Notes under the pieces: generated by a model | What the model saw: the letters and a program-made list of their open reading frames with translations, nothing else | Database searches by the model: none | What the model was told of the DNA's origin: nothing | In this document: positions 30,040 to 45,158 of the stretch, piece by piece | Layout of the letters: every line of letters begins with the position of its first letter | Numbering within the stretch: the stretch's first letter is position 1 | Made by a program: the position numbers and the translations under genes | From: Acanthochlamys bracteata | Taxonomy: Eukaryota > Streptophyta > Magnoliopsida > Pandanales > Velloziaceae | DNA: 64,000 nt | Reading direction: 5' to 3' | Assembly: GCA_019914995.1 (NCBI GenBank) | Contig: CM034138.1 | Location: 3,534,001 to 3,598,000, forward strand

Positions 30040-31714
30040 TATAGTTGGCAGATCTGGACCGAATCGTCTGGATCGATCCAAAAATTATCGATCTGGACGA
30101 CAAATCAATCCGGATCTGCAAATAGACCGTACATTCCATTGACCCATTTCTACATGTTTGAACTATTTTGATCAGTTTGATACGTACGATCCGCCCGTCC
30201 GGGTCTACCTGGTCTGCTATTAAAATTTAAAAAAATTAATAAAAACCTAACTTTATCATTACCCGGCTCAATTGAATCCTAAATTTCTAATCAATTTCGT
30301 TCTACTTCTCCTCTCCGGTGCTCCGACCAGCTCGTCCGTCTTTCCCGACGAGATCTCCTGATAGCTAAATTTCTTCTCGGACTAGATACCACTCTCTACT
30401 CGCATACGGCAATCCTGTGTACGAGCAGCAATAGCACGGAGCCTATGGTGCTATGGTTGAAGCTGGCTATGGTGCTCATCACTAGCCCGAGAAAAAACGA
30501 CTAGGCGAGAAGCTTGGTGAGAAGCTTCATCGATCCAGTAGCTTTAGCTCTAGCAGCTCTGTAAGTTCTTATCTTTCTTCATTCTTTGAGAATTTTGATA
30601 TCGGTGGAAAGGACAAAATTTTGAACTTTAGTGTATAACTACAATGCAGGAGAGTGATGGAGAAGGCGGTAGGAGGAAGAAGGAAGTGAAGGATAAGATC
30701 AAGGAGAAGATGACAGGCAAGAAGAAGGACCCAGTGACCATGTGCATCCGTGCTGGTTCTGTTCTTCGTCTTCGCTGCAATTTAATGATGCTGCAAAAAC
30801 AACGAATGTTTACAATGTCGACGACAGAGAAGGTTGAAAGATTCCTAAGAAGGACCAAGTTGATTTCTAACAACAGTAGATTAGCAAGATTAATTTTTTG
30901 TTGGAGACTTTATGAGTCTGATTTTTTTCTCTGTCTTTTTAACATGTTCGCATAATTTGCATGCATGAAAAAACTTGTTCTAATCACTTACGTTTTAGGT
31001 TTTCTGAATCAGTGTTTAAATATAAGAATGATTCAGTAGTGAAAGTTGAGAAAACAATTTACTATCACTGCAATGAAAGCGGAAGCGATTAGGTGTTCAC
31101 GGATGGAAGAACTTTGCTATTGTTAGACAGGATTCTACTACTTCGTTAGCAGTGATTAAAAGCACTGCAAGAAAGGAATAAGGCTGATGATTGAAGTTAT
31201 GAATTTGCCATTACCTCCGGAATTAGGTGCTGCTCCTTCACTGTTGCTGAATTCAAGTAATATTGTCTCAAGCAGTGTTTCAGTGATTGGTTCAGTCATA
31301 GCTGTTGGTATCTTTTCTTTGCCATGGCTTTTTCTTCTTACTGCATTCTAACATAGAATGAGGATTTGCTTAGTCTATAGGATTTGTCTCATTTATCATA
31401 GAGAATATTGTTGTTAGTTTTCTTGGGATATCATAATATTAAAATCTGCATAATAGCTGTATGAGAAAGTGAGAGTGGAGAACGTGGTTGTAGGCTGATG
31501 ATATTAATTACAATTTCAGTTAAGTATTGACCATATTTAGAGCACATTGTTGGTTATTTATGACATTATCTTTTAGTTTTAAACTGCTGTATATTTTACA
31601 AATTATTGTATGGATTAATGTTTTGGAATAATATTACTAATTGTGACCGACGGATTAAACTGCCGATCTGGACATAAATTCGGATCGATTGTCGGGTCGG
31701 ATTTTACAACTACG
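30040..31714 (+). mobile_element. Non-autonomous hAT transposon carrying a dehydrin gene fragment
   Basis: The element is bounded by a perfect 8-bp target duplication GTTAAAAC (30032-30039 and 31715-31722), the hallmark of hAT insertions. Its ends are inverted and related: TATAGTTGGCAGATCTGGACC on the left matches the reverse complement of GGTCGGATTTTACAACTACG on the right. The subterminal regions are rich in GATCC/GGATC words (TGGATCGATCC, GTCCGGGTCTACC). No transposase is present. The interior holds the dehydrin fragment at 30405-30745 and about 1 kb of unidentified sequence. A second member of the same family, inverted, lies at 36159-37597. Confidence 0.85.
30405..30745 (+). pseudogene. 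Captured dehydrin (LEA group 2) fragment with its intron
   Basis: Inside the hAT element one reading frame gives, in order, a Y-segment core (YGNPV), a Gly/Tyr-rich linker, KLHRSSSFSSSSS, a GT-AG intron (30561-30649, 89 bp), then ESDGEGGRRKKEVKDKIKEK and MTGKKKD. That is the Y-S-K order of a YSK-type dehydrin, with the intron inside the Ser tract, where dehydrin genes have theirs. Two in-frame TAG stops interrupt the linker, no start codon or terminal K-segment is seen, and the K-segment has drifted (EKMTG for EKLPG). Retention of the intron means it was copied from genomic DNA. Dehydrins protect membranes and proteins during drying; this copy should be dead. Confidence 0.88.
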
Positions 31715-31902: not shown

Positions 31903-32163
31903 GGGCGTGTTTACCTAGGGGGTGGAAGTGAAGTTTTGGGAGAAGTGGAGTTTTTAGGAAATAAATTTAAAAAATAAAATAAAAAATAAAAAATATTTAA
32001 TAAAAAATAAAATTTTATATTAATTATATATTTTTAGTAAGTTTTAAATTTGAATTTTAAAAAAAATTTTATTGATAAAAAAATTTATTTTAATTTTTAT
32101 AAGTATTTATGTGAAATTTGAGTTTAAAGGAAGTGAAGTTTAGGGGTGTTGGTAAACACGCCC
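31903..32163. mobile_element. Tourist-like MITE with perfect 13-bp inverted ends
   Basis: This 261-bp element starts GGGCGTGTTTACC (31903-31915) and ends GGTAAACACGCCC (32151-32163), an exact inverted pair. It is flanked by AAA on both sides, which could be a 3-bp target duplication (PIF/Harbinger type), although the usual TWA target is not seen. The interior is very AT-rich and codes for nothing. Confidence 0.8.
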
Positions 32164-33600: not shown

Positions 33601-35850
33601 ATGGCTTCTGGTAGTAGGAATGATTCGGATTCAAGGTCGTTCGATTTCGGTTCGGACGATGTACTTTGTTCCTACGATGATTACAACAACAGCAGCAACG
33701 TTCAGCAGGACAACGCCGTCAACGGCAAACGATCTGATCCATCCGTCAAGGTATTGATGAAACTTCTCTCCTTTTGTTTCTGTCGATTTCTATGTTTCTT
33801 TGATTAAAGATTTGTTGTTTGTTGGATAGTTGCTGAAAATTTTCTTATCAGTCTGTTGATTTAAAAGGAATTGTCAAAAACTGTTCTTTTGGTTGAGGAA
33901 GGAACGAAAATTTGTCAATTCTAGCCATTTGATTGGTTTTTTAGAGTTGGAATTAATTTTTGTGAGATTCCAAGATTCGAAAAAGCGTATTTTTTATTAT
34001 TATTACCATTATTTTTTTGCGCTTGTGCCTGTTACCTATTTCTGCTGAATTTTTTGAAAATTCTTTAAATATTTTATAGGTTACGTTCTATGTACAGTAC
34101 TAAATTTTTTGGAAAGTTATTTGTTGAATCTCTGATACATGGAATTGGAATTATTAAGTTTGCACTATTTGCAGGATTTCCATGAGAACAGAAGCGGGAG
34201 AACATCACTGGATGTGTATCATGAGGATGGGTTTTCAAAAGGAGACTTGATTAACGCTGTTGAGAAGTCAATGAAGAAGAATGCTGATAATCTACTTCGG
34301 TATCTCGAAGGCATCAGTGGGAAGCTGTCACAGTTAGAAGTTCACTGCTACAAGATTGAGAGAGCAGTAGGGGAACTTCGATCCGACATAGCCCGGGATC
34401 AGGATGAAGCAGATCGGAAGATTAAGTCGCTTGAAAAACATCTTCAGGAAGTAAGTCAGTGGTTGTTATGTGCTACATCCTGAATATATTGAGTTTTGTG
34501 ATGTATTGCAATGTTGCAATACGGTAATGCTATATTGTTGAGACTTGGTATTAGTGGTTCATGCTAATTGCAATTCTGAATATATTATTTTGTCTGCATC
34601 AGATTCACAGGTCGGTGCAGATTTTAAGGGACAAACAAGAGTTGGCTGAAACACAGAAGGAGCTATCCAAACTTCATTTGAAGGAATATGCTAATTCTAG
34701 TAATTTAAAGCCGAGTGAGTTTAGTGCCACTCCATCTATCCCCGAGCATCAAAAGGTTGATGTTCCAGACACTCCTAACTATCAGTTGTCTCTTGTCTTG
34801 CCGCACCAAACACCTGCACCAACTTCAGACCCTTCTGGAGTAGAGCAGCATATTGCAGCTGCACCTTTGGGTGTGCAACAAGGTCACTACAACTTGAGCC
34901 ATACAGGTGGCTATTATTCACAGCAACAAAACATTCCTAATATTCCAATGAAACCCCATAGTCATGATCTTCCTTCTCAAGCACCGGCACCCCAGCAACC
35001 TGGTATTCCTAGTCAGACTCACTTGCAGTCGACCGCTCAGTACACGCCACAATGGCATCAACAGGCTCCACAGCATGGGCCTCAACAGGTAATCCAGTCT
35101 CTGCTGCCGCCACAGCAGCATCAGCTTCGGCCAAGAGCACCACCAAGTTATCATGCATACCCTCCACCTCAGGCATCGAATGTTGCACCTGAGTCGTACC
35201 CAAGTAATGCCATGGTTCAAGCTCCATATTCTGCTATTTCTCAACCTAGCGGAGCCCGCCTTGAAGCTGTTGCTTTGAATTATGGAGGACCTGGAAGTAC
35301 ATTACCGCAGCCATCAGCTCAACAGCAAAGGTCTGAAGCTATCCCTTATGGTGGACCAGGAAGTTCAGTTCCTCATCCTTCATCGCAGCACCAGCATGTC
35401 ATTCAACAGGTACCACCTCAGGCAACCCAGAGCTCTTTCTGTCCAAATGTGAACAAGGGTGGTTACTTAGCAACTGCTGTTTACACCCCTTTGCCGCCCC
35501 AGCCTAGTGGTCAAGGATATAACACTGTCTATGGCATTGACGGAGGCAGAGCTGCTCATTCTCAAAGCTTTCAGGCAGCTAATAACTATCAGGTAAGTAG
35601 TGCCCCACTGCCAAAGAGTCAGCAGCTTCTCCCAGGAAGTAATGTTGGTGTGCACCATCCTGGCCCACAGGTCATCAACATGCACCCCTATGCTGACACG
35701 GTTGACAAAGCTATCAATATGGGTTATCCAAGGGACCACGTCCTGAGCGTGATCCATAGAATGGCGGAAAGTGGGCAGCAGGTAGATATTAATGCTCTTC
35801 TGGATAGGCTGAATCCTCGCTCTTCCACAGCATCCCCCAGTGGATGGTGA
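33601..35850 (+). CDS. FLOE: FLOE-type DUF1421 prion-like protein
   Basis: A homologue of Arabidopsis FLOE1, a prion-like protein that forms condensates on hydration and tunes seed germination. Exons 33601-33750, 34175-34450 and 34603-35850 are all phase 0 with GT-AG introns, giving 557 residues. The N-terminus is Asp/Ser-rich (MASGSRNDSDSRSFDFGSDD...). Residues about 70-165 form a coiled coil (LLRYLEGISGKLSQLEVHCY, then IHRSVQILRDKQELAETQKE), the predicted nucleation/oligomer part. About 170-505 is a long disordered Gln/Pro/Ser region. The C-terminus (DKAINMGYPRDHVLSVIHRM...VDINALLDRLN) is the UBA-like DUF1421 end. Which of the FLOE paralogues it corresponds to is not clear. A donor-like CAG|GTAAGT inside exon 3 (35593) could allow an alternative isoform. 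Two related hAT elements flank the gene. Confidence 0.93.
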
Positions 35851-36409
35851 AAGTCGAAAACACTTAACATTCTGTTTTGGTGAGTGGCAACCGTTGTGCA
35901 TTTGGCAGTATGATTGCAAGAGTCTAATAATACTTACGGGGTGAATGTCCAAGTATTTGTATTATGAAGGGTGCTTCAACTCTAGCAACTGAATATCTTT
36001 CTTGGGTTTTATCAGAGATATCTTATGTGCTAGTTTCTGTTGGCGTTTGGTCATGTACTTTGAAGAGTAGAGTGCTTATTTCCGAAACTCTGCTCTGTGG
36101 AAGTGTTTGATAATGCTTATGAAAAATAGAGTTTTTATAGAATGGATAGTATTTTTGTTATAATTGTAAAATTTCAACCGGATGTCGATCTGAAAATTAT
36201 AGTTGTAAAAATTGAATCAGATCTCAATCCGAAAAGCTTTTCAGATCAACTATTTTCGAATTGATCCAGCAGATCAACGGATCGATCCGGCATGTCAACC
36301 GTATACATACGGTAGTACATAAGGTCAAATTAAAAAGACAGCGGTAGTGTTCTCGACGGAGGAGCAGCTGTTGAAAACTAGTTTTCTTGACAGGTCAACA
36401 GTATTTTTA

Positions 36410-36500
36410 TCCAAATGATTAGCTATCACAGGTTGATATCAATAATCAGGTTGATATCCACTGATTAGCCACCACATGTTGATATTAATAATCAGGTCGA
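36410..36500. repeat. Short imperfect direct repeat inside the hAT element
   Basis: Two roughly 50-bp copies of GATTAGC(T/C)A(T/C)CACA.GTTGATAT..AATAATCAGG lie one after the other, just before the captured LEA sequence. A third partial copy (CAGGTTGATATCCACT) lies between them. Confidence 0.6.
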
Positions 36501-36761
36501 TACGGCGATGTTTCCGGTGAGAGGAGAGCTGGCTGATGAAGTGATCAAACCTCATGATGCAGCGATAATGCAGTCAGTAATGATGCACTCCGTTAGTTAT
36601 TTTCCATCTTGTAAAAATTATTGCGTTAGCAATACTACTGAGACTGATGAAATCTTTGCTTTCGATTCCTATAGGTGGTAGGTCAGTTCATGCAGTCAAC
36701 TCCGGTGCCAACAGAAGCAGCAAGCGTCGGTGTTAGTCCGGAACCATCTTCGATATATTAG
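36499..36761 (+). pseudogene. Captured seed-maturation-protein (LEA D-34 / SMP) fragment
   Basis: Two pieces of an SMP-domain LEA gene. The first reads MFPVRGELADEVIKPHDAA then IMQS, matching the SMP opening pattern (Y)GDVF.V.GELA...I.P.DAAMMQS. The second follows an acceptor-like TTCCTATAG and reads VVGQFMQSTPVP...PEPSSI to a TAG at 36759-36761, matching the GQVVGQ(Y/F)V(E/Q).. region of the same family. The YGDV start is out of frame with the rest. Sequence between the pieces looks intronic, so capture from genomic DNA is likely. LEA D-34 proteins accumulate in drying seeds; this piece is not functional. The identification is by eye from remembered family sequences. Confidence 0.7.
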
Positions 36762-37970
36762 ATATCAGACATCTTCTCTTTGATCGAGATCTCTCCGGCT
36801 ATCTCCGCGTTACCGAACGAGCTCTCGATCTCGACGGAGAAACAATGGTAGCGATCTCTCTCGATATAGGTCTCACGGAACTCTCGATCTCGACGGAGGA
36901 GCAGCGGCAGCGATCACGATCTAGCCGAGCAGAACGGAGGAGCAGGAGCCGAACGGGAAAGCCGAAGCCGGAACCAGAGCCAGAGCAAAATCTGGATGAA
37001 AAATGGAAGAAGAAAATACAGTTGATTTTGATGTAATCTGTATATGGTGCGGTGAAGAGACAGTTGTGCCGGAGAAGGGTTGAACGCAAGCCGAGAAGAA
37101 GGGCCGCCTGAGGTAAATCGCCGTCGGGAGGGGATGTAAGGGTGAAGAAGAAAATAAAAAAATAGTTATAAATAATGAGAAATTTATTTAAATAAACCAA
37201 GTGATGAGAATAAAATAAAATAGTTATAAAATAAAATTATTAAAAAAATATAAGTAAAGCAAAATATTTTTTGATATATATGTCTGAGTATTTTATAATA
37301 TAAAAATATAAAAATTACTAATAATTAATATTTACTGATAGGGTATAATAAAAATTTTTTGTATTATCAATCCAAATATAAATATAAAAAACATATTCAT
37401 AATCAATTTTGTACCAAATATATCACTAATTAAAATTTTTTTATTTTATTCAGTCCGGATTGATCCGAGCAGGCTGATCGTCCGGGTCATATTCGGTCGA
37501 AATGGATCAATTACATAGACGGTTTATTTGCAGATTCGGACTGATTTTTTGTTCAGATTAATGATTTATAGGTCAACTTCTAGATCTGATAACTACAATT
37601 TTGGTCTTATTTCAAAATGCAAACTTTATTTTTACTTAAAATAATAGTAATAATAAATAATATTACGATTTTTTGACGTATAATTTTTTTATATTTTCTA
37701 AAATTTTAAATAAATTTTATAGAATGTTGTAGAAAATTTATTGATAATGTGAATTAGTTTTATGAAATGAAAAGTGAGGAGAAGCAATGTCAAATGCACT
37801 CTTAAAGTTATCAAAAGAAGTGAAAAATGTTGTAGTTTTTCATTTAACTGCATGATACATGCCGCCAAATTTCTACTAAAAACTTCGAAAGTGCGGTAGC
37901 AATGTGACATGGTCCCTCTTTCATAGAGCTTTTATTGTCTAAGTAATAGTTGACCTGCCAAATACAAACA

Positions 37971-42607: not shown

Positions 42608-45158
42608 TAGACGCGTAAAAACAGACGAGCCGGCTCGGCCACTTTTCTAATCCAGGTCGGCCTGGCTCGGGTGTAGATTTTGAAGCCCGGCCTGACCCGT
42701 CAGGTAATAGTTGTGTTCTGCGTTCTTCAATTATCCTTCTAGCTGTACTAAATGTCGATTCTAAAGACACCGTTGAGACATGGATAGTCAAAATATCAGG
42801 TGCTAGTTGAGATAGTACTGGATATCTAGTTGAATTGTCTTCCATCAATTCAAAATATTAAAATATTTTGGATTTTCATCGTCTTCTACAATGACAGTAT
42901 CTCCACAAAATATTTGTTCAAATTCGAAAAAGATTGCATACTGCTTGAAGTTGAAAATGGTGTTGAACTTGAGCCAGGCTTAATGAAGATAAAAAACCAA
43001 TTGATCATTTTTTTCTTCTTACTTTAATGAGTTTGTGCCGTTGTTGTTTTCTGTTATTGATTCCGCAAATTACCAAACCTAAATTTATAAAAATCATAAA
43101 CTCCCTACAACTTGGTACGAGCGTTTGTTATTTGTAATTAAAATATCAAAAATATCTAAATACATACCAATATATGTAAGAGTATTAGAAAAAATACACA
43201 AATTTAAATTTAGAATCTAACATAAAAGCAAAACAATATAAAAGAGAAATATTATACCAATATTTTTTTAATTTTGTAGTCATTATTGTAACTATAGGTT
43301 CAAATAATTAATCTATTACATATGAATGTAACATAGTAGATATTAAAATTGAGTGTAAACTAATAGAAAAATAGGATAGTAAATACCAGATAATAAAACA
43401 GTAGTATCATAAAAAAATTTTAAAAATTCTACCAGCTTTTCAGCAATAATCTAATGAGTTTCAGTAAATATATTGTTACCCATTCTTTTATTATAAAAAA
43501 TCATATGCATATGTTTACAATATAAAGTATTTTTTAACATTAAATAAATAGAATTCTATCTTACTGGCATATCAAGGTTGAATTTTCGGAGCTTTAGATG
43601 TTCTATTATGCAATATCTATTAAATGCAGCTAAACGTTGGTTTGAACTAGTTATATAAGAAATTGCAACATGAATATCATTAATCTGTTCAATTACCAGT
43701 TGCATAATTGATTGTACGATCAAGTTGATAATATGGCAAGCACAACATTGATGCAGTAAAATTCTTCCCATGTATGAGCTTAGCTTTATATCAAGAAATC
43801 GAATTGTTTTGGTATTTGCTGAAGCATTATCTAGTGTGGTAGAGATAATGTGGTTGCTTATGCCGCATTCTTTAACTACACTTATAATGCGCTCAGAGAT
43901 ATTTTTAACATCATGTGTGAAATGAATAAGTCTAAAGCCAATAATTCTTTTTTGCATAATCCATTGTGAATCTAAATAATGTGCAGCAATACTTAAATAA
44001 TCTTATGTAGCTCTACCGCTCCAAATATTAGATGTTAACACAATAGAAAAATTTAATGAACTTAATTCAGATTTTAATATAGTATCCATTTTATTGTAAT
44101 AAGTAATAATATCGCTTCTAAGTAGTTGTTTTACTAATTTTTTGAAATTGTGGACAATATGCTATTCATAAAAAAATGATTCAGCAAAATTAATAGATAA
44201 ATTTATAGCACAAATCATACATATAAGAGATTTCCTAACTACATTAGAATCATAGAACCACGTATTTATCGAACCATTCGTGTTGAATTGAAGTTGAGTT
44301 TGTGAAGGTTCTTTCTAATTTCTTTTTTAGAAACACATTTTTTACAATGTACTATTAAATATCAGGTTCGTATTTAGGATTAGCAGTTAGAAGTTTTTCG
44401 TAAAACTTATATTTCGCTATTTTTTATTTAATACCATCACTTTGCACTGTATATTCGGCGGTGAAATAATTTCAGACTTCAGAAGTTATGACTTTTGATG
44501 TTTTGTCGTTGTTGATGTCGATCATAAAACCGAACTACTTATAACACTCGAAATTGGAGAACTTTCATTGCATATTTGGTGGAAATTTTTTCTTTATATT
44601 GGAGAAACTTTATCTCCTTGCTCCATACGGACAATATTTATTTTCTATAAATTTTGATAATCTATATCAAGAGTAGTAGCACGAATATTTGGATCCATTT
44701 GAAATAACAATTAAAATTTTTTGAGAATTGAAAAATGTGAATTTAAAAAAGTAAAGTAAAAAAATATTTTATAAATTTGTATGAGTTTGAGTAGAATGAA
44801 AATGAGAAGTGAGAAAATTGTGTGTAAAATAAATAAAAATAGAATGTATTTATAGATAAAATGATGAATTATAAAAAATAATAAATAATAAAAAACTGCA
44901 GCCAACGGTCTGCTGACGTCAGTATGACCGTTTGGTTGATCATTTTGTTGAATTAGTCAATGGTCAATGTTGACCAAATCAATATCAATATTGATCGGTC
45001 AATACTGAAAGTACCGGACGGGCATGCTGATAAAATCGGCTCGATACTGCCTATTAGGTCGGGCCAGACTAGCTCAGTCTTGGCACTATTTATCGAACCC
45101 GCGGGCCAAAAGTCGGACCGTAGTCCGGTCCGTTTGGCCCCTCATTTCTGCATCTCTA
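42608..45158 (-). mobile_element. hAT transposon (inner element), inserted into the outer hAT
   Basis: A 2551-bp element with a perfect 8-bp target duplication ATCTTGAC (42600-42607 and 45159-45166). Its ends are TAGACGCGTAAAAAC (left) and ATTTCTGCATCTCTA (right, the reverse of TAGAGATGCAGAAAT). It lies on the minus strand inside the C-terminal transposase region of a relative. GC-rich subterminal words of the GGCCCG/CCGGTCC type flank the ends, as is common in plant hATs. The perfect duplication against a 5-of-8 duplication outside says it arrived later. Confidence 0.93.
42680..44698 (-). pseudogene. Broken hAT transposase of the inner element
   Basis: Starts MDPNIRATTL at 44698. A readable 133-codon stretch (43957-43556) carries the catalytic region: IIGFRLIHFTHDVKNISERI, then STTLDNASANT and HQCCACHIINLIVQ. 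The C-terminal hAT dimerisation region (42848 to about 42680) reads YPVLSQLAPDILTIHVSTVS and then FSTARRIIEERR. Stops and shifts in the N-terminal part and between these pieces make it non-functional. It resembles plant RICESLEEPER/DAYSLEEPER-type transposases. Confidence 0.88.

Follow-up and report, generated by a model that had tools for sequence, protein, structure and literature searches.

An SMP-type LEA gene fragment in the Acanthochlamys bracteata genome lies within what is very probably a non-autonomous hAT transposon with a captured pseudogene fragment, that is, a Pack-hAT element. We analysed a stretch of 64,000 nucleotides, hereafter the window, which corresponds to C13:3534001-3598000 in a genome of 195.5 Mb and 557 contigs. 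Positions are those of the window unless a contig (C) or another extracted locus (L) is named. The features discussed below are collected in Table 1.

Table 1. Positions, strands and supporting evidence for the features in the window
Feature	Position	Strand	Evidence and remarks
SMP element, very probably a non-autonomous hAT (Pack-hAT), 1439 bp	36159..37597	-	TIR and TSD scan
TIR of SMP element	36159..36174	+	TGTAAAA-type end
Left TSD of SMP element, ATTTTTGT	36151..36158	.	
Right TSD of SMP element, ATTTTGGT	37598..37605	.	
SMP exon 1 piece	36500..36577	+	First half of first SMP domain; 95%, 80-bp alignment to C6 gene
SMP intron and start of exon 2 piece	36586..36755	+	82%, 170-bp alignment to C6 gene
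GC-rich filler of SMP element	36756..37140	.	52% GC; partly common to L031, L032 and L033
AT-rich family core of SMP element	37142..37597	-	22% GC; common to the short AT-rich members (574-811 bp) and many dispersed copies
DUF1421 gene, between the two elements and outside both	33601..35850	+	ATG at 33601 and exon joining read from sequence
Dehydrin element, second family member, 1675 bp	30040..31714	+	Perfect 8/8 TSD GTTAAAAC on both sides
Dehydrin fragment (exon 1, intron, exon 2)	30401..30739	+	84% to C7 dehydrin gene; Pfam dehydrin 37 bits, cut-off 30.6
Phytocyanin (plastocyanin-like) fragment	30739..31468	+	84% to C3 gene, 75% to C5 gene

Ends, cargo and probable donor of the SMP element

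The SMP element is bounded by the terminal inverted repeats (TIRs) TATAATTGTAAAATTT and TGTAGTTATCAGATC, and its target-site duplications (TSDs) are identical at seven of eight positions, with one mismatch. For one fixed pair of ends and this base composition, a match of at least 7/8 would arise by chance with a probability of ~7e-4. The right end is of the CATAGTTGGCAGATC type; in the dehydrin element, this type is at the left end. When reversed, the right end of the SMP element aligns with that left end at 77.8% over 72 bp (E 5e-12), and the left end of the SMP element also matches the right end of the dehydrin element. Both elements have the 8-bp TSD (7/8 and 8/8, respectively) and the shared short TIRs of hAT transposons. 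The coordinates given in the first-pass annotation, and the end-to-end homology with a dehydrin-carrying hAT that it described, were correct, and its placement of both elements in one hAT family is borne out by the matching ends and common TIRs. A Pfam search with six open segments of the SMP element gave no hAT domain among the best 25 of the 41 families listed, those reaching E 0.14.

A search of the plant's own genome gave an intact SMP gene on C6 (L029) with which the interior of the element aligns. This gene has three SMP domains (66-76 bits), of which exon 1 encodes one and exon 2 the other two, and its domain-bearing frames are without stops; in the reverse complement of L029, exon 1 extends to position 1897 and is followed by a 101-bp intron and then exon 2, the exon borders having been set by eye. 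The “intron-like gap” noticed on the first pass corresponds to ~211 bp of donor sequence, comprising the end of exon 1, the 5′ splice site and the first intron bases, that are missing between the two captured pieces; after it comes most of the donor's intron, lacking the first 17 bp, including the GT. Since intron sequence is retained, we conclude that the fragment was captured as DNA and not through RNA. A 2-bp deletion in the exon 1 piece, upstream of the ~211-bp gap, breaks the reading frame. The peptide of the fragment scores 13-14 bits against the Pfam SMP family (PF04927; E 0.05-0.12), under the cut-off of 22, and hence the identification of the interior as an SMP-type LEA fragment, which the profile alone would not have upheld, rests on the DNA alignment with the C6 gene, where it holds. 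The captured piece derives from a gene of the SMP/LEA D-34 family but is itself partial, with a broken frame, a lost splice donor and a score below the Pfam cut-off, and is no working member of that family. It is a pseudogene unable to encode an SMP protein, and any effect of it would be via regulation or small RNAs.

All three copies of the SMP fragment that we compared (window, C2 and C8) are fitted better by the C6 gene than by seven other SMP gene regions, which makes the C6 gene the best-fitting intact donor candidate. On this comparison we rejected the SMP genes of C10 and C4 as donors. Divergence from the C6 donor is uneven, at 95% for the exon 1 piece versus 82% for the intron/exon 2 piece. 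A single capture date alone does not explain this difference; coding constraint on the donor, if present, would.

The SMP fragment is present in at least three places, on C13 (the window), C2 and C8. The C2 copy (L030) contains both SMP pieces and lacks nearly the same stretch between them (~213 bp); it is enclosed by family TIRs and flanked by a 7/8 TSD of its own. The C8 copy (L031) has only the 3′ part, that is, the intron/exon 2 piece and the same 3′ junction, without the exon 1 piece; it was counted by its cargo and 3′ junction, whereas the window and C2 copies are bounded at both ends. The shared missing stretch and 3′ junction therefore point to one capture elsewhere that was later multiplied, and the SMP capture predates insertion at the window locus. 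Consistent with a Pack-hAT, the element has a host gene fragment between its TIRs with an intact donor elsewhere (the C6 gene), its captured DNA has multiplied with it (C13, C2 and C8), and it has no transposase of its own.

A large family with varied cargo and a transposase-encoding relative

A family terminal pattern near CATAGTTGGCAGATCCGGACCGAAC occurs at 374 sites genome-wide (203 forward, 171 reverse) when up to three mismatches are allowed; the reversed pattern had no sites in the same scan. We scanned 42 sequences (the window, L029-L068 and L071) for TIRs and TSDs, allowing up to two TSD mismatches and accepting pairs by eye. This yielded 24 elements in 23 of the sequences, with perfect TSDs in 10, one mismatch in 11 and two mismatches in 3; the other 19, which included donor genes, yielded no accepted TIR/TSD pair. 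The family also has five short, AT-rich members (574-811 bp; 25-28% GC).

The dehydrin element is a chimera of dehydrin and phytocyanin gene pieces. It shares a further 34-bp upstream match with the C7 dehydrin gene, and a Cu_bind_like match (E 0.04) in the open segments of the elements led to the phytocyanin donor genes (Cu_bind_like E 6e-11 in the donor). The dehydrin fragment is found in at least 10 places genome-wide. Six copies have both the dehydrin and the phytocyanin parts (window, C15, C14, C6, C9 and C2), and a TIR/TSD pair was accepted in three of these (window, C6 and C9). Four other sequences (L056, L058, L059 and L060) share the dehydrin 5′ part with other cargo beside it; the left boundary of L058 in the dehydrin donor is nearly identical (975 versus 971), and its second part matches a locus on C12 (L069). 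L058, L059 and L060 cluster at C1:6.49-6.60 Mb (L060 is C1:6496268-6502042) with the flanking octamer CTCAAAAC in common, the octamers of L060 being GTTTTGAG/GTTTCGAG. These clustered elements may be segmental duplicates with their flanks and not separate insertions. A short element adjoining the dehydrin element, at 31903-32163, has exact 13-bp inverted ends (GGGCGTGTTTACC / GGTAAACACGCCC) and is probably a MITE.

For a wider view of the cargo, 261 open segments (at least 38 aa, low-complexity removed) were obtained from 15 elements, and 131 of these, from 14 elements, were searched against Pfam; those left out were mostly shorter, together with all segments of L062, which resembles L065. Only dehydrin, in two members, was above background. 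Pieces of other genes were recognised through their donors: a TIFY gene in the L065 group (donor L070, TIFY E 6e-13), a Myb gene in the L038 group (donor L076, Myb E 5e-6) and a DUF630 gene in the L067 group (donor L074, DUF630 E 5e-23). The TIFY and Myb names assume that adjacent open segments form one gene, the domain lying in the donor locus outside the captured stretch. We take the TIFY donor to be of the PEAPOD type from its motif; a PDB sequence search with its first open segment returned nothing useful. The first part of L067 matches L072 and L073, which, again by motif, we presume to be possibly a phosphatase gene. The captured sequence is often from the 5′ region of its donor gene, as in SMP (exon 1-exon 2), dehydrin (exon 1-exon 2) and DUF630 (5′ UTR and first codons; L029, L057 and L074, respectively).

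A 5470-bp relative at C9:7265261-7270730 (L071:362-5831) has the same kind of TIRs and a perfect TSD, TTTTAAAT. Its open segments match DUF659 (E 1.5e-38) and Dimer_Tnp_hAT (E 9.7e-14), and more weakly zf-BED (E 0.005, below its cut-off). The dimerisation-domain transposase of an autonomous hAT is thus found in this relative and not in the SMP element. From its TIRs, TSD, DUF659 and hAT-dimer domains, we conclude that the family is hAT. Over 58 bp, the right ends of the relative and of the dehydrin element show 84% identity. A blastn comparison of the relative with the SMP element gave no match beyond the TIRs, and the tie between these two is indirect, via the dehydrin element and other members. 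Elsewhere in the window, on the minus strand at 42699-42869 (C13:3576699-3576869), a degenerate match to the hAT dimerisation domain (52 bits, one internal stop) is a putative decayed transposase fragment.

We infer the following course of events. Part of the C6 SMP gene would have been taken up by a hAT element situated within it or close by, with ~211 bp being lost inside the captured piece. The loaded element would have been multiplied by transposase from relatives such as that on C9, and one SMP-loaded copy would have inserted a short way 3′ of the DUF1421 gene. The dehydrin/phytocyanin element, likewise a cargo-bearing member of this large family, would have arrived in the neighbourhood by a separate insertion.

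Proximity of the two elements and alternative explanations

The SMP and dehydrin elements are 4.4 kb apart and inverted to each other. If the 374 sites were spread evenly over 195.5 Mb, ~3.2 pairs within 4.4 kb would be expected by chance, a rough figure because one end type was counted and a few sites may be both ends of one element. With about three chance pairs expected, the spacing needs no special cause. The SMP element begins ~300 bp past the stop codon of the DUF1421 gene, an ordinary near-gene position. The first-pass annotation had envisaged two captures made 5 kb apart, reflecting either open seed-gene chromatin or chance. The cargo counts speak against captures at this locus: as both fragments are multi-copy, the captures predate the insertions, and the window received one copy of each. 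A special role for open seed-gene chromatin is likewise unsupported, given captures elsewhere and a spacing expected by chance; it is the alternative of chance that agrees, on our rough estimate, with a family this large.

The pair could instead be read as a composite, or macro-transposon, of 7.6 kb, in which the DUF1421 gene and the element on either side of it could move as one unit. The outer TIRs are compatible and the elements close, and the published model of capture, in the part of the source available, uses just such an arrangement: Pack-TYPE elements are thought to gain new DNA between two neighbouring same-family insertions with compatible TIRs that flank a gene (PMC8903248). However, each element has its own TSD and so arrived alone, no other place with both elements was present among the best 40 matches scored for each, and the two are of different subfamilies and mutually inverted, unlike the local pairs described in that part of the source, most of which share a cluster and an orientation (PMC8903248). 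We consider a composite highly improbable. Still less credible, in our view, is a host pseudogene origin of the SMP sequence, with transposon ends having fallen into or next to it by coincidence: the piece is indeed degenerate, but in the C2 and C8 copies it retains the internal or the 3′ junction seen in the window, and on C2 it again lies between family TIRs flanked by a TSD.

A different question is whether LEA or seed genes are favoured as cargo by the family, as might happen if it moved in maturing embryos, at a time when such genes are open and strongly transcribed. LEA genes make up roughly 0.2% of genes, and two of the six donors with Pfam support (SMP, dehydrin, phytocyanin, TIFY, Myb and DUF630) are LEA-class, far above this share. 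However, SMP and dehydrin are the two that defined the finding, none of the other four donors is LEA in a sample that is tiny and not random, the category was picked afterwards, and the two belong to unrelated families. These figures do not show an enrichment for LEA or seed genes, and we regard such a preference as very unlikely. That the family transposes during seed maturation, sampling highly expressed LEA genes, strikes us as a little more doubtful still; if true, captured cargo would record the developmental time of the family's activity.

Relation to known gene-capturing transposons

The study of the grapevine hAT elements Hatvine-6 is reportedly that of Benjak et al. in 2008. In the excerpted account, the variable interior of these elements often matches host introns and exons, as here, but they share transposase coding sequence (PMC2528002), whereas the window elements are without a detected transposase domain. 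The maize hAT elements Ds2 and Ds-l4 have, in the available portion of the article, an 8-bp TSD and filler that occasionally comes from genes, introns included, as in the window; their 11-bp TIR is of the Ac type, unlike that of the family here, and gene capture is called rare in the hAT superfamily (PMC3260210). Pack-hAT and other Pack-TYPE elements (Gisby and Catoni 2022, PMC8903248, in part) are likewise non-autonomous TIR elements with an 8-bp TSD and gene fragments, their cargo sometimes coming from more than one locus and being amplified as clusters, as we observed; those described are in maize and rice, have other TIRs, and no LEA gene is named in that portion. Gene-fragment capture by hAT elements is, from these partial sources, already known (PMC8903248, PMC2528002, PMC3260210), and capture mechanisms were reviewed in 2026 (PMC13317346, in extract). 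Among the papers listed by our literature searches, none was seen to describe LEA genes as cargo of such transposons, nor a seed maturation protein in a Pack-MULE.

The present analysis describes a Pack-hAT family of considerable size from a compact plant genome, together with its donors, its junctions and a relative that encodes transposase. It also serves as a warning for gene searches, in that dehydrin- or SMP-like matches can be transposon cargo: three of the four lowest-scoring dehydrin matches above the cut-off in this genome (on C13, C15 and C2) are located within copies of this hAT family.
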